From positions 372,001-436,000 of the forward strand of contig NZ_JACHOU010000001.1 of assembly GCF_014206975.1 (NCBI RefSeq): a stretch of 64,000 bases of DNA, read 5' to 3'. The translations under genes and the position numbers were made by a program. Shown here piece after piece: positions 5,466 through 14,602 of the stretch; position 1 is the first letter of the stretch; each line of letters begins with the position of its first letter. Origin of the DNA: Aminobacter aganoensis (GTDB taxonomy: Bacteria > Pseudomonadota > Alphaproteobacteria > Rhizobiales > Rhizobiaceae). The notes beneath the pieces were generated by a model, which was given only the letters and a program-made list of their open reading frames with translations, was not told where the DNA came from and did not search any database.

Positions 5466-5744
5466 TCAACCCCTGCCTCGCCACTCGCCCATGGGTTGGT
5501 AACCTAGGGCGACCATGTGGATAACCCGTTAACCCGGCAACCCCAGCAAGCGCATGGCGTCGGGCCCAATAATCACTCCAGTGTTAACCTTATATTTAAA
5601 CTTTTACGTATCGGGGCGAATGCATGTTTTCTTTACCCGATTGTGTCACTACGATACGGGCGGTCCATATTGAGCCTCGGACGCGGTCAAAAATAGGACA
5701 AAAAGTCCAGAGATTCCGCGTCTTTAGTACAGGGTAGCGAAGGC
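5466..5744. promoter_or_regulatory. Divergent hpt/gpr promoter region with TAACC half-sites
   Basis: No gene lies in this 279-bp region, which is more AT-rich than its surroundings, especially 5575-5710. TAACC occurs four times in the same orientation, at 5500, 5522, 5530 and 5585; two copies extend to TTAACC (5529 and 5584). TTAACC resembles the half-site of the cell-cycle regulator CtrA. The spacing is not the canonical TTAA-N7-TTAA (one near-match has an eight-base gap), so CtrA control is only a suggestion. Confidence 0.4.
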
Positions 5745-8700
5745 ATGGCGAAGAAATCCACTCCGACAAAAAACCTCGATCTCGACGTAGCCAAGGAGCT
5801 CGAGCAGGCGCTCGATCTCGACCTGAGCGGCGCCGATGACGGCGGCCTCGACATGGCCGCATCGATGGACGATCTCGAAGCTCAGATTTCCCAGGCAGCT
5901 GAGGAACTGGCGCGCGAAAGCGGCAACAAGAAGCCCGCAGCGCCCAAGCCGGAACCGGCGCCGATGGCACGCGCCGCGGCCGAGCCGCCGACCCAATTGC
6001 GCCCCGTCGAAACCCGCCCGCTGCAGCCCGAAGGCTTCAAGCCGGCCAATGACGATCGCCAGAAAGACTACAAGTCGCTGCTTCACAGCCTCAACCGCCG
6101 TGCATCCAGCACCATCTACTGGATGGTCGGCCTTGTCTCGGTCGCCTGGGTCGCAGGCGCCTTGGCCCTCGCCGACCGTGTCGTCAGCCCGAGCATCTGG
6201 ACCATTCGCTCGATCGACGACATCTTCGCGCGTCCGGGCCTGCTGATGCTGCTGGTCGCCACCGTGGTGCCCATCGCTCTGTTCTGGGCCTTCGCCGCGA
6301 TGATCCGCCGCGCCCAGGAAATGCGCATTGCAGCGCAGTCGATGACCGAAGTGGCCTTCCGCCTCGCCGAACCCGAAAACATGGCACAGGACCGTGTCAT
6401 GATGGTCGGCCAGGCCGTGCGCCGCGAAGTCGCCGCCATGGGCGAAGGCATCGAGCGCACGCTGGCCCGCGCCGTCGAGCTCGAGACGCTCGTCCACACC
6501 GAGGTCAACCAGATCGAGCGCTCCTATTCGGAAAACTCCGCCCGCATCCGTTCGCTGGTCGACGGCCTCGGCAGCGAGCGCGAGGCCGTTGTATCGCACG
6601 CCGAGCGCGTACGCGCCTCGATCGCCGGCGCGCATGAGACGCTGCGCGACGAGCTTGGCTCGGCTAGCGACATCATTCGCGACAGCATCCTCAACGCATC
6701 GACCAAGCTGTCGATGACGATCACCAATTCCGGCGACACGCTGATCGACCGCATCAACGAAGGCGGCATGGGCCTGTTCGAAGCGATCGACAACCGCATG
6801 GATTCGATCAGCGACCGCCTGTCGACCTCGGGCGAGGCCTTCGCCAGCCTGCTCGACACGCGCATCGCCAAGCTGACCCAGAGCACGGACGAAGTTACCC
6901 GCTCGCTGACCGACATGCTCGACGACCGTACCTCGGGCATGGTTTCGCTTCTCGGCGGCGCTGCCAAGACCATCAATTCCGAATTCGAGGCGAGCCTGCA
7001 CGGCATCGAGCGCACCCTGGCCGAACGTGGCCAGGCGCTCATCGGCGAGTTCCAGACGCGCGCCGAAGCACTCGACACCGGCACCGCCAAGCTCAATGCC
7101 GCGCTCGAAGCCCGCGCCCGCCAGATCAACGAGACGCTGGTCGAACGTGCCCGCGAGATTGCAACGACCTTCGTCGAGGGCCGCGATTCGCTGTCGGCGA
7201 TGATCGACCAGGGCAAGACCCAGATCGGCACCGACCTCGCCGACATCATCACCTCGACCTCGACCATGCTCGAAGCCCGCGCGACCGACTTCGCCGGCCG
7301 CATGGAGGCTGCCCGTCACCAGGTGTCTCGCGCCTTCGACGGCGACATCCAGCGCCTTTCCGACGCCCGCGTCGGCATCGAGCAGGCGGTCGAAGATCAC
7401 ACCCGCAAGCTGTCGGACGCCCGCGACCGGATGGCAGCGGCACTCAAGGACGATCTCAGCAAGTTCGCCGAAGGCCGCGCCAGCATCGAAGCCGCCGTTG
7501 GCTTCCAGGTCCAGAAGCTCGCCGAAGGCCGCAGCCTGATCACGCGCGCCCTCGACGACGACATGCGCAAGCTGGACCAGTCGCGCCAGGCCATCGACGA
7601 AACCCTCACCGGCCAGTTCCGCCAGTTGGCCCAGGGCCGCGAACAACTCGCCCAGGCGCTCGTGGAAGACTCCGAGAGACTCGTCCAAGCCCGTACGAAC
7701 ATTGACGAAATGGTCGCCGGTCATGTCGGCAAGCTGGCCGAGGGCCGCTCGATCCTGACGCGTGCACTCGAAGCCGACCTGACCAAGCTGGCCGACAGCC
7801 GCAGCAGCATCGACGGCCTGGTCGCCGGTCAGGTCGAAAAGATCGCCGAAGGCCGCGCCATCCTGGCATCTGCCCTGGAACGCGACCTCGATGGCATCAA
7901 GGCGCTCGTCGACGGCCACTCCTCGAAGATCGCCACAGACCGTGCCGGCCTTGCCAAGGCACTCGAAACCGATCTCGACGGCATCAAGGCACTGGTCGAC
8001 GGCCATGCGTCGAAGATTGCGACCGACCGCGCCGAGCTGTCGCGCAGCCTGGAAGCCGACATCTCGAACATCCACGGCCTGATGGAAGGCCATGCCGACA
8101 AGCTCGCGGAAGAGCGCACCCTGCTCTCCAAGACGCTGGAATCCGACCTTGCCAAGCTGGCCGACAGCCGCGCCGGCATCGACGGCCTGGTCGCGGGCCA
8201 GGTCGAGAAGCTCGCCGAGGGCCGCGACATCCTCAAGCGTGCGCTCGAAACCGATCTCAACGCCATCCGCAGCACCATCGCTGCACAGTCGGAGAAGCTC
8301 GCCGAAGACCGTTCGCTGCTGTCCCGCTCGCTCGAGGCCGATCTCGACAACGTCAAGAGCCTGGTCTCCAACCACGCCGAACGACTCGTCGCCGAACGCG
8401 GCGCGTTGTCCAAGGCGCTGGAAGACGATCTTGCCAAGCTGGCGGAAAGCCGCTCCGGCATCGACGGCCTGGTTGCGGGCCAGGTCGAGAAGCTCGCCGA
8501 AGGCCGCGACATCCTCAAGCGCGCGCTCGAGTCGGATCTGAACACCATCCGCAGCACCGTCGCCTCGCAGTCGGAGAAGCTGGCCGAGGACCGCGCCATG
8601 CTGGCCCGCTCGCTCGAAGCCGACCTCGACAGCGTCAAGGGCCTTGTGTCGAGCCATGCCGAGCGCCTGGTCGCCGAACGCGGCACCCTGTCCAAGGCGC

Positions 8701-11700
8701 TTGAAGACGACCTCGCCAAACTGGCGGAAGGCCGCTCCGGCATCGACGGCCTCGTTGCCGGCCAGGTCGAAAAGCTGGCCGAAGGCCGCGACATCCTGCG
8801 CCGCGCCCTGGAAGCCGACCTCGCCAAGATCGACGGCATGATGCTCGGCCAGGTCGACAAGCTGGCTGCCGGCCGCGACGCGCTGACCAAGGCGCTCGAA
8901 GCCGACCTTGCCATGCTGAACGACAGCCGCTCCAGCATCGACAGCATCGTCGCCGGCCAGGTCGACAAGCTGGCCGCTGGCCGCGACGCCCTGACCCGGG
9001 CGCTCGAAGCCGACCTCGCCTTGCTGAACGACAGCCGTACCAACATCGACGGCATGGTGGTCGGGCACGTCGGCAAGCTCGCCGAAGGCCGCGACACCTT
9101 TGTCCGCGCCCTCGATGCGGATCTCGGCAAGCTGGGCGACGCCCGCCGCGAGATCGACCTTGCTATCGCCGGTCATATCGACCAGATCGCCGCACGCCGC
9201 GTCGACATTTCCGACGCGATCGCCAGTGATGTCGAAAAGATCGAGGAAGCCTTCCGCCGCCAGACCGGCGTCATCGAAGAGCGCACCGGAACGATGGAAC
9301 GCGCGCTGTCGCTCGGCGTCGACAACGTCCGCGGCGTGCTCGAAAAGAGTGCCGTCTTTGTCGCCGGCGCCCTGCGCGACAAGGTCATGGAAGTGACATC
9401 CGCCCTGCACGAGCAAGCCGGCCAGGCCTTCAGCGACGCCGACCGTGTCATCGCCGAGCGGGCCGAACAGACGTCGAATGCCCTGCTTGCCCGGGCCGAA
9501 GACATCGCCCGTGCGTTCGAGGAGGCCGACGGCCGTCTCGCGGCCAGGGCACACGAGACGTCGAACTCGCTGCTGGCCCGCGCCGAAGAAACCGCCGATA
9601 CGCTGTCGGCCAAGGCGGGCGAGATCGCCCAGACCTTCGACGCAGCCGACCGCTCGCTGATCGCGCGCGCCATCGAGACCGCGGAATCGCTGTCGGCCCG
9701 TGCCGGCGACATCCTGCGCAACTTCGACAACGCCGACGAGCGCCTCGGCCTGCGCATCGGTGAATCTGCCGATGCATTGGCTGCCCGTGCCGCCGAACTC
9801 GGCCGTATCTTCGACACTGCCGACGAAAAGCTCGCGGCGCGCATTGCCGAAGGCGCCGACTCGCTCGGCGACCGTGCCGGCGAACTCAGCCGCATCTTCG
9901 ACGCGGCCGACGAGCGCATTGCCGCCCGCGTCGCCGACAGTTCAGCGACGCTCGGCAGCCGCGCCGGCGAAATCGTCCGCAACTTCGAGGAAGCCGACGA
10001 GCGTCTTGCGGCGCGCGCCGCGCAGACGGCCGACACCCTGTCCGGTCGCGCCGCCGACATCGGCCGTGCCTTCGAGGAAGCCGACAGCCGGATTGCGGCT
10101 CGCGTCGACCAGACGGCGGAATCGCTGCTTGGCCGTGCCGCCGAAATCAGCCGCGCCTTCGACGAAGCCGACGGCAGGATCGCCGCTCGCGTCGATCTCA
10201 CCTCGCAATCGCTGCTCGGCCGCGCTTCGGAAATCGGCCAGGCCTTCGACGAAGCCGGCCAGCAATTGGCGGCCCGCGTGACCGAGAGTACCTCGGGCAT
10301 CGGCGAGCATGCGGCATTGATCGCCAACGCCTTCACCGAGACCGAGCAGCGCGTCGTTGCCCGCGCCCAGCGCACGGCGGCGGATCTTGATGCCCGCGCC
10401 CGCGCCATCGAGGAAACGCTGGCCAATGTCGACGAGCGCCTGGCCGCTGGCGCCGAAGGCGTCGCGACCCGCATCGGCGAGCACCTGTCGAGCGCGGAAA
10501 ACCGCCTCGCCCATGGTGCCGAGTCGATGGGCCAGAAGCTCAACGATCAGGTTGCCCAGGCCGAAGCCCAGCTGGTCGCCCGCGCCAACGTGATTGCCGA
10601 GACCTTCACCGCCGTCGGCCAGCACATCGGCCAGAGCACCAATGAGGCCGCGCGCACCATCGGCACCAACACGCGTGAACTCAACGCCATGCTGGCCGAA
10701 CGCTCGAACGAGATCGCCAAGATCCTCGACGAGACGGCGCGTCCCCTGGTCGACCGCTTCGCCGAAAGCGGCAACGACCTGCACCGCTCGATGGAAGAGG
10801 CGACCGCCCGCGCCACCGAAAAGCTGCGCAGCGAAAACGCAATCCTCGCCGACGCGCTTGCCAGCCGCACCGCCGAGACGCTGTCTGCCGTCGAGGGCGC
10901 ACGCTCGACGCTTGCCGACAGCGTGGCCGATCTCATCGGCCGGATGACAACGTCGAGCTCGCAGCTCGGCGAACTGATCGAACGCGCGGCGCAGAACCTC
11001 GCCACCGTCGACGATCGCCTCACCGGCAGCACGACGAACTTCTCGGCCACCACCGAGAAGGCAGCGCAGACCTTCGCCAGCGCCGCGCGCCTGGTCGACT
11101 CGAACACCAACCGGCTGACCGACCTGTCGTCGAGCACGCTGCGCGAAGTGGCCTCCATCGCCACCAAGTTCGACGAGCACAGCCGCCTGCTGTCGAGCGC
11201 GTCCAACCTGCTGTCCTCGGCGCAGAGCAATCTCGAGCACACACTCGAACGCCAGTCGTCGCTGGAGGACCTGGCCGTCGGTCTCGTCAAGAAATCGGAA
11301 GACCTCGAGCGCGTCATGCAGTCGTTCGAGCGCCTGGTCGGCCAGACGCTGGAAAGCGCCGAAGGCAAGACCATGGAATCGGCCGAGAAGATCCGCGCCG
11401 CTATCTCCGATGTCGTCGAAACCGCGACAAAGCGCTTCGCTGACGCCACCGAGGACATGCGCCGCACGGCCGGCTCGATCAAGACCGAGCTCGAAAGCAC
11501 TCGCGCCGAGCTCAAGAAGGGCGTGCTCGACATGCCGGAGGAGGCCAAGGAATCGACCACGGCCATCCGTCGCGCCGTCTCCGAGCAGATCAACGCGCTC
11601 AAGGAACTGTCGGCGATCGTCGCCAAGTCGGGCCGCACCGTGGACGTCTCCGACGCCTCGCTGCGCAACACGCAGCCGCCGGCGCAGCAGCCGCGCCGCC

Positions 11701-12296
11701 CGGCCCCGCAGCCCGAGCAGCGTCGCGAGCCGCCGGCAGCACCGTTGGGCGGTAACGCCGGCCTGCGCGGCACGCTCGACATCGAGCGCCCGGCAGCCCA
11801 GCCGCAGCCGCCGGTCCGCGAGCCTGCCAGCCGCGGCCAGCAGGGTGGATGGGTGCGCGACCTGTTGACCGGTGCCTCGCGCGAGGAGCAGCCTGCCCGC
11901 CAGGCGGCCCAGCCCGAGCCGCGCGCCGTGCCCGCACAGCGTTCGCCGATGCATGTGGTGGAATCGCTCAACTCGCTGTCGGTCGACATCGCCCGCGCCA
12001 TCGACCACGAAGCCTCGATCGAGCTTTGGGACCGCTATCGCCGCGGCGAGCGCGACGTCTTCACCCGCCGGCTCTACACGCTGAAGGGCCAGCAGACCTT
12101 CGACGAGATCCGCCGCAAGTATCAGTCCGACGGCGAATTCCGCACGGCCGTCGACCGCTACTGCGACGACTTCGAGAAGCTGCTCAAGGATGTCTCGCGC
12201 AGCGACCGCGACAGCATCATGACCAAGACCTACCTGACCTCGGATACCGGCAAGGTCTACACCATGCTGGCCCACGCGGCGGGACGCCTGAAGTAA
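5745..12296 (+). CDS. gpr: Growth-pole ring protein (GPR/RgsE-like giant coiled-coil membrane protein)
   Basis: A 2183-residue protein matching the architecture of Agrobacterium GPR and its Sinorhizobium orthologue RgsE, which form a ring at the growing pole and are required for polar wall synthesis. An acidic, proline-rich cytosolic N-terminus (1-120) is followed by two membrane segments (about 123-146 and 165-186). A very long alpha-helical region comes next, containing two repeat families (592-1147 and 1232-1561). A Pro/Gln-rich linker (about 1976-2066) leads to a conserved-looking globular C-terminus (2067-2183). No enzymatic motif is present. The start has GCGAAGG just before it, and a strong terminator follows the stop. 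Annotations such as kinesin-like or apolipoprotein-like reflect only coiled-coil similarity. Confidence 0.82.
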   Translation: MAKKSTPTKNLDLDVAKELEQALDLDLSGADDGGLDMAASMDDLEAQISQAAEELARESGNKKPAAPKPEPAPMARAAAEPPTQLRPVETRPLQPEGFKPANDDRQKDYKSLLHSLNRRASSTIYWMVGLVSVAWVAGALALADRVVSPSIWTIRSIDDIFARPGLLMLLVATVVPIALFWAFAAMIRRAQEMRIAAQSMTEVAFRLAEPENMAQDRVMMVGQAVRREVAAMGEGIERTLARAVELETLVHTEVNQIERSYSENSARIRSLVDGLGSEREAVVSHAERVRASIAGAHETLRDELGSASDIIRDSILNASTKLSMTITNSGDTLIDRINEGGMGLFEAIDNRMDSISDRLSTSGEAFASLLDTRIAKLTQSTDEVTRSLTDMLDDRTSGMVSLLGGAAKTINSEFEASLHGIERTLAERGQALIGEFQTRAEALDTGTAKLNAALEARARQINETLVERAREIATTFVEGRDSLSAMIDQGKTQIGTDLADIITSTSTMLEARATDFAGRMEAARHQVSRAFDGDIQRLSDARVGIEQAVEDHTRKLSDARDRMAAALKDDLSKFAEGRASIEAAVGFQVQKLAEGRSLITRALDDDMRKLDQSRQAIDETLTGQFRQLAQGREQLAQALVEDSERLVQARTNIDEMVAGHVGKLAEGRSILTRALEADLTKLADSRSSIDGLVAGQVEKIAEGRAILASALERDLDGIKALVDGHSSKIATDRAGLAKALETDLDGIKALVDGHASKIATDRAELSRSLEADISNIHGLMEGHADKLAEERTLLSKTLESDLAKLADSRAGIDGLVAGQVEKLAEGRDILKRALETDLNAIRSTIAAQSEKLAEDRSLLSRSLEADLDNVKSLVSNHAERLVAERGALSKALEDDLAKLAESRSGIDGLVAGQVEKLAEGRDILKRALESDLNTIRSTVASQSEKLAEDRAMLARSLEADLDSVKGLVSSHAERLVAERGTLSKALEDDLAKLAEGRSGIDGLVAGQVEKLAEGRDILRRALEADLAKIDGMMLGQVDKLAAGRDALTKALEADLAMLNDSRSSIDSIVAGQVDKLAAGRDALTRALEADLALLNDSRTNIDGMVVGHVGKLAEGRDTFVRALDADLGKLGDARREIDLAIAGHIDQIAARRVDISDAIASDVEKIEEAFRRQTGVIEERTGTMERALSLGVDNVRGVLEKSAVFVAGALRDKVMEVTSALHEQAGQAFSDADRVIAERAEQTSNALLARAEDIARAFEEADGRLAARAHETSNSLLARAEETADTLSAKAGEIAQTFDAADRSLIARAIETAESLSARAGDILRNFDNADERLGLRIGESADALAARAAELGRIFDTADEKLAARIAEGADSLGDRAGELSRIFDAADERIAARVADSSATLGSRAGEIVRNFEEADERLAARAAQTADTLSGRAADIGRAFEEADSRIAARVDQTAESLLGRAAEISRAFDEADGRIAARVDLTSQSLLGRASEIGQAFDEAGQQLAARVTESTSGIGEHAALIANAFTETEQRVVARAQRTAADLDARARAIEETLANVDERLAAGAEGVATRIGEHLSSAENRLAHGAESMGQKLNDQVAQAEAQLVARANVIAETFTAVGQHIGQSTNEAARTIGTNTRELNAMLAERSNEIAKILDETARPLVDRFAESGNDLHRSMEEATARATEKLRSENAILADALASRTAETLSAVEGARSTLADSVADLIGRMTTSSSQLGELIERAAQNLATVDDRLTGSTTNFSATTEKAAQTFASAARLVDSNTNRLTDLSSSTLREVASIATKFDEHSRLLSSASNLLSSAQSNLEHTLERQSSLEDLAVGLVKKSEDLERVMQSFERLVGQTLESAEGKTMESAEKIRAAISDVVETATKRFADATEDMRRTAGSIKTELESTRAELKKGVLDMPEEAKESTTAIRRAVSEQINALKELSAIVAKSGRTVDVSDASLRNTQPPAQQPRRPAPQPEQRREPPAAPLGGNAGLRGTLDIERPAAQPQPPVREPASRGQQGGWVRDLLTGASREEQPARQAAQPEPRAVPAQRSPMHVVESLNSLSVDIARAIDHEASIELWDRYRRGERDVFTRRLYTLKGQQTFDEIRRKYQSDGEFRTAVDRYCDDFEKLLKDVSRSDRDSIMTKTYLTSDTGKVYTMLAHAAGRLK
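7518..9185 (+). repeat. gpr coiled-coil repeat family 1 (17 units of 36 or 29 residues)
   Basis: Read in frame, the protein divides without remainder into units beginning (L/I)A-x-x-R. The unit lengths in order are 36,36,36,29,29,29,36,29,29,36,29,29,36,29,36,36,36, totalling 556 residues. The consensus start is LAEGRDILKRALEADL; the long form adds seven residues around LADSRSGIDGL before VAGQVEK. Seven is one heptad, so both lengths could keep the same helix face outward. Confidence 0.85.
8103..8861 (+). repeat. 282-bp tandem superrepeat inside gpr
   Basis: Three consecutive blocks are highly similar at DNA level. The GACGGCCT segment recurs at 8181, 8463 and 8745, exactly 282 bp apart. Each complete block encodes one 36-residue and two 29-residue units (94 residues). 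Copies are 8103-8384 and 8385-8666, then a partial third copy to 8861. This points to recent in-frame duplication. Confidence 0.8.
9438..10427 (+). repeat. gpr repeat family 2 (11 units on a 29-residue period)
   Basis: Units begin at AD-x-R-(L/I)AAR and continue with TAESLLGRAAEI and AFDE. Ten of the eleven are exactly 29 residues (87 bp); the second, at 9525-9644, is 40, an insertion of 11. The motif differs from family 1 but shares the same 29-residue period. The last two units (10254-10427) are more diverged. Confidence 0.82.
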
Positions 12297-12534: not shown

Positions 12535-13134
12535 TCAGATCAGTCCTTCAGTCCACTGGACGATGTCGGACGCAGCCTGGCCGAAGGCAGCGTCGAGGGC
12601 AGCGACGTAGGCGTCGTTGCCGGTGCCGGAAACCGGCGCCGTGGCGTTGAACACGCGCGAGGCGCGAACCTGGCCGTTGCGGTCGTTCAGCAACCTGACG
12701 AACAGCTCGACCTCGGCCTGGGCGCTGCCGCCGACCTTGATCTCGAAGCTGCGGACCTCCACGATGACCTGGTAGTCGATCGCCAGCCCCTCGCCCGGCT
12801 TGCCTATGCCGACATAGCCGCCCGCGCGCTGGAAGGTCTCGGCAAGCCGCGCCTGCAGGATGCGCGGCAGCCGGTCGGACCACTGCGCGCCCTTGAGGAA
12901 CTGGATCGAGCCGGGCGACGGCTTGATGACGATGCTCTGGCCATCGAGCGACTTCAGCGCCGAAGGTTCAGCGATCAGGATCTGGCGGCGGCTCGAACCG
13001 CTGCGGCCAGTCACCGAAGGCGCAGTCAATTCGTAGGTATCGAGTGGCGGCGGCGTGCTGACGAACAGCGAGGTGCAGCCGGACAGCGTCAGCGCCACTG
13101 CAGCAAGCAGCAATGTAGATCTAGCAGACTTCAC
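12535..13134 (-). CDS. ABC-type transport auxiliary lipoprotein (Mla/Mce system)
   Basis: Last gene of the Mla-type operon, encoding an outer-membrane-directed lipoprotein of the ABC auxiliary (PqiC-like) family. I chose the GTG at 13134, giving 199 residues, because it yields a textbook lipoprotein signal (VKSARSTLLLAAVALTLSGC) and has GGGGA eight bases upstream. An ATG at 13218 is open and overlaps the upstream stop by four bases, but it would place the lipobox about 48 residues in. The mature protein has the family's YELTAPS and RSGSSRRQILIAEP segments. It probably links the MCE protein to the outer membrane. Confidence 0.8.
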   Translation of the reverse strand: MKSARSTLLLAAVALTLSGCTSLFVSTPPPLDTYELTAPSVTGRSGSSRRQILIAEPSALKSLDGQSIVIKPSPGSIQFLKGAQWSDRLPRILQARLAETFQRAGGYVGIGKPGEGLAIDYQVIVEVRSFEIKVGGSAQAEVELFVRLLNDRNGQVRASRVFNATAPVSGTGNDAYVAALDAAFGQAASDIVQWTEGLI

Positions 13135-13214
13135 ATGCTGTCCCCGGATACGACTCACTCGCACCTTGCGCGAACCACCCTCAAGCAACTTCATGGTGCG
13201 GCAGGCAAACGATG

Positions 13215-14588
13215 TCAACGACGCACCCGCCCGTCGAATTCACGCACGGTGCCCTCGCCGCCGGTGATGATGCGCTGCGGATTGCGCTCCAGGTCGGAGA
13301 TCGCTTGCTCAATGCGGGTGATCGAGCGGCGGCTGTCCTGGACGAGCGATTCGACGTCGCGCAGGCCCTGCCCCGAAAAGCGTGCCAATCCGTCGGTGAT
13401 CGTGCCCAGGCGCGCATTCAGCGTGTCGGCGACCTGCTTGAACGCCTTCAGCGTCTCGCTGGCATCGGACATCACGCCTTCCGCCTCGCCCGAGCCCAGC
13501 AGCTTGTCGACCTTGGCCAACACGCCGTCGACGCGGACGGAAGCCTGGTTGAGACGCGACGCCAGTTGCTTGGCGTCGGAGACGATCTGGTCGATGTCGT
13601 CGGCGCGGTCACCGAACTTCTCGGTCACCTTGGCGACGTCGGCGGCCGCCTTGTTGGCGTTTTCGCTGGCCTTGCGGATGTTGTCGAGGGACTCCTTGAC
13701 GCTCGCCGCATCCACACCTTCCAGCACACCGTCGACCTTGGTCAGGGTCTGTTGCGTCTTCTGTGCGAAGTCGTTGATCGAGGCGACGGTGGTGTTGACG
13801 CCCTTGACGATGTCGTCGATCTGGTCGCTCTGCGCGCTCAGGTTCTTGGTGAAGGTGTCGACACTGGCGACGATGTTCTTCACCTTGTCGCGGTCGACCG
13901 ATTTGAGCAGCCCTTCCGCCGCCTCGATGGTGCCGTCGAGCTTGCCCGACACGGTGGACAGCTGCTCCGAAAGCGCGCTCACGCTGGCCAGGAACTTGTC
14001 CACGCCGTCGGCATTGCGTGCCAGGGATTCCGAGAATTTCTGGGCATTGCCGACGGTTGCCGTCAGCGGGCCGCGGACATCGTTGGTGAAGCCTTCGAGA
14101 TTGTTCAGCACCGTGTCGGCGCGCTTGAAAATGTCCTGCGCCGTCTGCAGCAGGTTGGTGACTGCGGACGGATTGGCGACGATCTCGGCAACGGTGCCGT
14201 CAGCCTCGGCCTTGTCGAGCAGGTTCGGTTCCTTGATGTTGGCACCCTTGAGCTCGATGTTGGCCTGTCCGGTCAGGCCGGCAAGGCCGATGTCGGCCTG
14301 CGTCGACTGCGTGATCGGCGTCAGCCTGTCGATCTCCGCGTCGGCGATCGCCACCTGGGGATTGCTGACGTCGAGATAGACGCGACGGACATCGCCGACC
14401 TTGACGCCGTTGAACAGCACGAAGCTGCCCCTGGCCAGCCCCGAGGCCGAGCCCGGAATGCGCACGCGCAGCGTCGCTGTTTCGCCTCTCTCGCCGATCG
14501 CCGCCGTCCAATAGACGAAAGCAAACGCGGCCAGGATCGCAAACAGCGTGAAGATACCGACGACGACGTAGTTGGCCCTGGTCTCCAT
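13215..14588 (-). CDS. mlaD: MCE-domain phospholipid transport protein (MlaD family)
   Basis: A 457-residue inner-membrane protein. A single N-terminal membrane anchor (NYVVVGIFTLFAILAAFAFV) leads into an MCE domain (about 40-120) with GLARGSFVLFNGVKVGDVRRV and VNIELKGANIKEP-type sequence. About 300 residues of coiled coil follow. The periplasmic MCE ring and helical barrel carry lipids between the membranes. The track-length GTG at 14591 is possible, but the ATG at 14588 is simpler. It is longer than E. coli MlaD (about 183 residues), as is usual in rhizobia. Confidence 0.88.
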   Translation of the reverse strand: METRANYVVVGIFTLFAILAAFAFVYWTAAIGERGETATLRVRIPGSASGLARGSFVLFNGVKVGDVRRVYLDVSNPQVAIADAEIDRLTPITQSTQADIGLAGLTGQANIELKGANIKEPNLLDKAEADGTVAEIVANPSAVTNLLQTAQDIFKRADTVLNNLEGFTNDVRGPLTATVGNAQKFSESLARNADGVDKFLASVSALSEQLSTVSGKLDGTIEAAEGLLKSVDRDKVKNIVASVDTFTKNLSAQSDQIDDIVKGVNTTVASINDFAQKTQQTLTKVDGVLEGVDAASVKESLDNIRKASENANKAAADVAKVTEKFGDRADDIDQIVSDAKQLASRLNQASVRVDGVLAKVDKLLGSGEAEGVMSDASETLKAFKQVADTLNARLGTITDGLARFSGQGLRDVESLVQDSRRSITRIEQAISDLERNPQRIITGGEGTVREFDGRVRR

Positions 14589-14602
14589 CACATCATTCCA
14601 TT

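Follow-up and report, generated by a model that had tools for sequence, protein, structure and literature searches.

A growth-pole protein of Aminobacter aganoensis with a long heptad/hendecad rod and length changes close to whole helical turns

Architecture of the growth-pole protein gene

The window analysed here, 64,000 nucleotides of the Aminobacter aganoensis contig NZ_JACHOU010000001.1 (positions 372,001 to 436,000; coordinates below are those of the window), carries at 5745..12296 on the + strand, according to its listing of open reading frames, a gene for a 2183-residue protein resembling the growth-pole proteins GPR (Atu1348) of Agrobacterium tumefaciens and RgsE (SMc00190) of Sinorhizobium meliloti. 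Most of this protein is a helical rod, and among related proteins nearly all of the length differences in the rod correspond to whole numbers of helical turns. We consider it probable that the rod is a membrane-anchored, nearly untwisted scaffold of mixed heptads and hendecads in which length is free and facing is locked.

The features of the protein follow one another on the + strand. Hydropathy marks two hydrophobic segments, at residues ~122-146 and ~162-186 (6108..6302), which judging from the sequence are likely to form a membrane anchor; at least two such segments lie within the first 330 aa in 73 of 80 GPR proteins. With this layout and 2183 aa, the protein has the size (~2,100 aa) and the paired N-terminal segments of GPR/RgsE. 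The rod itself occupies residues 196-1960 (6330..11624), contains three prolines and has a hydrophobic period of 3.625 residues. It includes a hendecad-rich part at residues ~290-537 (6612..7355), where the local period is 3.64-3.67, followed by a first repeat array at residues 538-1176 (7356..9272) and a second array of 29-residue units at residues ~1230-1560 (9432..10424, with limits set by eye), in which the local period is 3.61-3.63 except for 3.66-3.68 at its start. Close to the rod end lies a stretch whose period approaches that of canonical heptads (10962..11384; 3.52-3.59) and that is perhaps a part with a different mode of oligomerisation. A proline-rich linker evident in the sequence (11697..11936) then leads to a conserved C-terminal domain of ~119 aa (11937..12293), which AlphaFold2 models, at low confidence, as all-helical; searches with this domain gave no Pfam match and no PDB sequence match up to E 1.

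Repeat units of the first array

The first-pass annotation had described residues 592-1147 (7518..9185, + strand) as a coiled coil tiled by seventeen units of exactly 36 or 29 residues that differ by one heptad, and on this point it was correct. Nine units of 36 and eight of 29 make up 556 residues and run without leftover from residue 592 (base 7518) to exactly residue 1147 (base 9185); the two lengths differ by exactly seven residues, and the missing heptad falls after column 16-18 of the unit. The segment is indeed a periodic helical array: its self-similarity peaks against full shuffles, at offsets of 94 (z 22.0), 36 (17.6), 29 (17.0), 65 (16.2) and 18 residues (9.6), with a further peak at 123, place the periodicity far beyond chance. 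The array also outruns this segment, as an anchor profile built from the units adds an 18-residue half at residue 538, a unit of 36 at 556 and one of 29 at 1148. Tiling and anchor profile together give the order 18, 36x4, 29x3, 36, 29x2, 36, 29x2, 36, 29, 36x3, 29. A PDB sequence search with residues 556-1175 returned one match, an EnvZ fragment at E 0.073, which we took as chance.

Aligning the 29s to the 36s resolves the 36-residue unit into two 18-residue halves of 7+11 each and the 29-residue unit into 18+11, because both halves of the 36 have one and the same 18-residue register. In that register positions 1, 8, 12 and 16 are hydrophobic, position 5 is Arg in 28 of 28 halves and position 15 is Asp in 18 of 28. 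The hydrophobic face so formed is narrow (positions at -20, 0, 20 and 60 degrees), and the invariant Arg, at 40 degrees, lies within the hydrophobic stripe throughout array 1 (7356-9272, +). If chains paired in antiparallel fashion, this Arg would be set against the frequent Asp at position 15.

Other parts of the first-pass annotation did not hold. The numbers 29 and 36 are not in themselves the meaningful ones, as words of 7 and 11 residues underlie both and other lineages repeat differently. The unit order, which had been called nearly symmetrical around the centre, is at chance level: five of eight mirrored pairs agree against a shuffle mean of 3.8 (P 0.30), and the agreement becomes 5/9 when the flanking 36 and 29 are added (P 0.43) and 7/10 when the 18 is added too (P 0.07). 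Part of the regularity is recent duplication, as is seen from tandem repeats in the DNA itself, where a 282-bp unit (36+29+29 residues) is present in 2.4 copies at 8127..8797 (+) with 87% matches and a 108-bp unit in 2.5 copies at 8824-9095.

Hydrophobic period and register of the rod

Hydrophobic residues recur every 3.61 residues in the segment 592-1147, with a spectral power of 78 at 3.61 vs 0.2 at 3.5, and the periods of the other rod parts are 3.65 (residues 191-591), 3.63 (1148-1560) and 3.64 (1561-1960). The same holds across 80 GPR proteins, the window's included, for which the median period is 3.650 and 78 values lie between 3.60 and 3.67. When the rod was parsed with a grammar of 7- and 11-residue words whose residue weights were set by hand, it scored 21.4 per 100 residues, vs -2.3 for sevens only, 0.3 for elevens only; the best of 30 shuffles reached 8.1. 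A register of elevens only fits residues 196-540 in part and fails on the whole rod. The rod combines sevens and elevens with a period within 3.6-3.67 and is in this sense a mixed heptad/hendecad repeat. A canonical heptad coiled coil was rejected for the whole rod, since the period is 3.61-3.625 and not 3.5 and the 7-only grammar scores about zero.

For comparison, 19 SMC proteins were extracted and three of them inspected with the same method: along the arms the period was for the most part 3.4-3.6, and departures from this range belonged mainly to weak windows around residue 500. Where hendecads bring the hydrophobic period near the 3.63 of the helix itself, little supercoil is left (PMC9858780; this and the other papers are cited from excerpts unless the main text is named). 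The rod would thus be nearly untwisted, because its stripe has a period close to the pitch of the alpha-helix.

Orthologues and their unit lengths

The N-terminal 352 aa found one match per genome in 40 of 41 genomes of relatives and were matched in 159 of 161 genomes of the family, the window's own genome being included in both counts; some of the 161 carry two or three matches, possibly to paralogues. Among the named matches is A. niigataensis, at 98% over the compared part. Architecture and wide presence in the order point to orthology with Atu1348 and SMc00190. From the 41-genome set 39 orthologues were extracted (L040 reaches a contig end). A near-relative set was drawn from the best 80 of 136 relatives, namely Aminobacter, Mesorhizobium, one Pseudaminobacter and two without a genus name, and gave 69 complete proteins after 11 were dropped.

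Among the 1504 anchor spacings of these 69 proteins, the length is 36 residues in 701 cases, 29 in 569, 18 in 98 and 22 in 6; the remaining 130 spacings are jumps over at least 106 residues that fall outside or between arrays. The array units of the near relatives are practically 36, 29 and 18 alone, in varying order. When the window's protein is added to make 70, 31 unit orders are detected (a few differing merely in whether the last unit was detected), arrays span 527-858 residues and proteins 1986-2316 aa. An opening LLLLSSL, where L is 36 and S is 29, is common to 65 of the 70, but the window's own array opens LLLLSSSL. Farther away, unit lengths change. They are 36/40 in one orthologue (L042) and 11, 22, 33 and 44 in most others, with repeat offsets also of 76, and this comparison across orthologues, which the first-pass annotation had suggested, takes away the special meaning that it had given to 29 and 36: lengths of 11, 22, 33, 40, 44 and 76 occur outside the closest genera. 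Across 80 proteins, GPR length ranges from 837 to 3387 aa. In Mesorhizobium loti UFLA 01-765 (L115) the GPR frame stops at 738 aa within array-like sequence, which is either an assembly error in the repeat or a real truncation.

Length changes in the rod and in the tail

We compared alignment gaps in the rod, taken from residue 200 to the point 290 residues short of the C-terminus (230 and 320 for the set of other genera), with those in the tail. A gap was counted as in phase if it lay within 0.16 turn of a whole number at 3.625 residues per turn (3.64 for other genera), a definition under which 31% of integers qualify. Pairing the 70 proteins with their nearest neighbours gave 192 pairs, in which 312 of 313 rod gaps were in phase vs 79 of 762 tail gaps. 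All 313 rod gaps are sums of 7 and 11 and the shortest is 7, while most of the 762 tail gaps are of 1-6 residues; none of the 313 measures 14, 21, 28, 35, 42 or 49. The 192 pairs share members, and 35 disjoint pairs were counted separately, with 39/40 rod gaps in phase vs 11/115 tail gaps (Fisher P 2e-25) and a shortest rod gap of 11. Twenty of 23 same-genus pairs from other genera (identity at least 55%), most of which were drawn from the 161-genome family set, gave 42 in-phase gaps of 47 in the rod vs 12 of 92 in the tail.

Membership in 7m+11n is weak as a sole test, given that 75% of the integers up to 120 qualify, and therefore the helical-phase test and the absence of short gaps bear the argument. 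The aligner recovered 150 of 150 planted random deletions of 1-60 residues and so has no preference for these gap lengths, and the main lengths were retained with other gap penalties. As a control we used SMC proteins, in which 26 of 36 gaps within residues 180-1000 are of 1-4 residues, or 13 of 22 without residues 500-690, which we take to be the hinge. For indels this control serves only in part, since the SMC pairs that supplied these gaps had diverged further than most GPR pairs, and the five closest ones have no gaps. The MlaD-type protein encoded downstream of the GPR gene was uninformative as an indel control, with no gap in 173 pairs of 63 sequences.

Gene neighbourhood

Upstream and divergent from the GPR gene lies a small gene for an HPt-domain protein (PF01627; 5091-5465, -). 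In the wider set 30 of 39 loci have a homologue upstream on the opposite strand, as do 78 of 80 loci of the Aminobacter/Mesorhizobium group; nine of the wider-set loci are same-genus, 31 of the 39 have at least 700 bp upstream, and L057 has its copy at an odd distance. A phosphotransfer gene kept beside that of a polarity protein may be a worthwhile lead.

Downstream and convergent are genes for a PqiC-like lipoprotein (PF03886) and an MCE/MlaD protein (PF02470), together at 12535-14591 (-). PF03886 and PF02470 genes follow GPR at 19 and 18 of 39 wider-set loci, respectively, and at 65 of 80 near loci, 65 being also the number of near loci with at least 900 bp downstream. A lipid-transport operon adjoins the gene of a proposed organiser of membrane growth. 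The MlaD neighbour (13215-14591, -) measures 457 aa in 62 of 63 filtered near-relative sequences, in contrast to the fast length change of the GPR rod. The first part of the GPR gene is overlapped in antisense by an open frame of 1276 aa (5724-9554, -), probably a by-product of high G+C content and repeated codons.

Discussion

The reading that we consider probable can be put as follows. In the ~1,765-residue, probably cytoplasmic rod, heptads and hendecads are mixed in such a way that the hydrophobic stripe keeps pace with the turns of the helix (3.61-3.65 residues each), and chains may pair or bundle along this stripe into an oligomeric coiled coil with little supercoil, giving a nearly straight rod. 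An alpha-helix rises 1.5 Å per residue, and the rod would be ~260 nm long if fully extended. The modules come close to whole turns (11 residues to 3, 18 to 5, 29 to 8 and 36 to 10), so that their gain or loss need not turn the distal part and the C-terminal domain relative to the putative membrane anchor. Length variants would arise by duplication and loss of similar repeats, and variants out of phase would probably be removed by selection on facing and on helix continuity. The most likely function is that of a phase-locked scaffold offering many identical faces to partners in polar growth. A stronger version, which we put forward tentatively and regard as less likely than not, is that rod length is nearly neutral whereas the rotational register from anchor to C-terminal domain is under strong selection, with the family evolving in whole turns and out-of-phase chains poisoning the assembly that they form with normal ones.

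Published deletions in Agrobacterium GPR bear on this stronger version. A 20-residue deletion in the coiled coil interfered with the wild type worst of all deletions, including that of the surrounding 263-residue domain, and mixed multimers were suggested by the authors (PMC8262873). A length of 20 residues corresponds to 5.5 turns and would leave the helix half a turn off; if that is the length removed, this could explain why the effect is stronger than that of losing 263 residues. The same paper, however, also says 21 residues and gives the ranges 413-433 and 413-434 (21 or 22), and since 22 residues would be in phase the phase account of this deletion is conditional. A second 20-residue deletion interfered beside the wild type and complemented well alone (PMC8262873), which argues against simple phase-locking. 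The deletion data fit phase locking in part and provide a testable lead, not proof.

Several further observations weigh against a straight rod that changes length in whole turns. GPR foci are 50 nm wide, from which the authors of PMC8262873 argue that the protein must fold. An AlphaFold2 monomer model of residues 538-1176, of low confidence (pLDDT 66.5, pTM 0.21), breaks at 719-728, 911-920 and 1102-1104 into four helices of ~180 residues, which makes a folded-back bundle possible, and at residues ~1740-1880 the period drops to 3.52-3.59, near that of canonical heptads. Among the gaps, a penalty of -8/-1 yields the odd lengths 9, 32 and 74, once each in 46 gaps, while longer out-of-phase singles vary with the penalties (108 at -11/-1, 245 at -20/-0.2, also 180). 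Among the 47 rod gaps from other genera, the pair L152/L153 accounts for two of a single residue, and lengths of 15 and 26 occur once each; the three most divergent same-genus pairs, which were dropped from that count, give many odd lengths. Single sevens make up 34 of the 313 rod gaps and, from the examples, appear to be largely 29s aligned to 36s. Finally, in 15 chosen pairs 24 of 40 inserts have a counterpart of 60% identity or more no farther than 60 residues away (for example 25/29, 29/36 and 10/11), a count for which the chance level was not computed, and whole-unit steps could thus be largely mutational.

Repeat turnover alone, in which recombination between similar repeats yields quantised lengths with no function beyond upkeep of the helix, is nevertheless an unlikely account. 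Besides the resemblance of inserts to their surroundings, it draws on the tandem repeats visible in the DNA, on the fast turnover of unit order (31 detected orders in 70 proteins) and on the position of the rod gaps of the first set, which are concentrated at 0.3-0.7 of the protein, the same place as the repeats. Duplication can therefore account for where whole units come from. Left unexplained by duplication alone are the near-absence of short indels, with none below 7 residues in 313 rod gaps when most tail gaps are that short, and the whole turns found in lineages with different units, where the length quanta (11/22, 29/36, 36/40) are each close to whole turns. SMC proteins, moreover, tolerate short indels, though in pairs that are more divergent.

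The Agrobacterium GPR papers propose an apolipoprotein-like rod, whose 11-based amphipathic helices would bind lipid while GPR organises membrane synthesis, and for the rod studied here we regard this as improbable. The best Pfam match is PF01442, with E 3.2e-25 over nine stretches, but its 89.4 bits narrowly miss the curated gathering cut-off of 90. An 11- and 22-residue periodicity prevails in many orthologues, deletions of A-IV-like regions impair cell shape (PMC8262873), and the MCE/MlaD-type operon is adjacent. Against this, LIVMF make up merely 23-28% of the rod in the seven orthologues checked. By comparison with apolipoproteins, a narrow hydrophobic face with an invariant Arg at 40 degrees would also be better suited to a seam between helices than to contact with lipid.

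That 29 and 36, in a symmetric order, fix ring geometry or binding-site spacing, as the first-pass annotation supposed, is very hard to maintain: the arrays of Aminobacter, Mesorhizobium and near relatives do consist of 36, 29 and the half-unit 18 only, and their opening is widely shared, but the order shows chance symmetry and varies by species, array and protein lengths differ within the near group, and other lineages have other units in orthologues of 837-3387 residues, for which reason the units do not appear to set ring geometry.

If the scaffold reading is right, in-phase and out-of-phase deletions would separate the roles of scaffold length, rotational register and lipid binding in the unipolar growth of Rhizobiales, and the family would be a clean example from nature of indels held to the helical phase along ~1,700 residues.

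Comparison with known systems

The protein is like GPR and RgsE in its size of ~2,100 aa, its predicted membrane anchor near the N-terminus, the great length of its helical region and its similarity to PF01442. Those proteins are termed apolipoprotein-like, coiled-coil or repeat-containing, mainly the first, and have a functionally important C-terminus and an occurrence across Rhizobiales (PMC8262873, PMC7327166). The descriptions of GPR/RgsE in the excerpts of both papers hold no unit lengths or 7/11 phase rule, the word 'repeat' is absent from the main text of PMC8262873, and among the literature matches listed, judged by title and abstract opening, none describes hendecads or unit lengths in GPR/RgsE.

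ZorA carries a long helical tail that is anchored in the membrane. Its profiles NF033916 and NF033914 show weak similarity to the protein (E 5e-4 and 2e-3), and scores of 16.6-19 bits vs cut-offs of 190-250 are no evidence of homology with GPR. Apolipoproteins have an 11/22-residue periodicity, and the A1/A4/E domain (PF01442) is, as noted, the best Pfam match; unlike that domain, the GPR rod falls just below the cut-off and is built of units of 18, 29 and 36 residues whose narrow stripe contains an Arg.

FilP and Scy of Streptomyces, the latter reportedly with a 51-residue repeat, are like the GPR rod by description only. Unlike GPR, they have a DivIVA-like N-terminal motif instead of a membrane anchor. 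Both form long rods in bacteria, have their heptads extended by hendecads and are predicted to supercoil little (PMC9858780), and they are connected with polar growth (PMC6599971).

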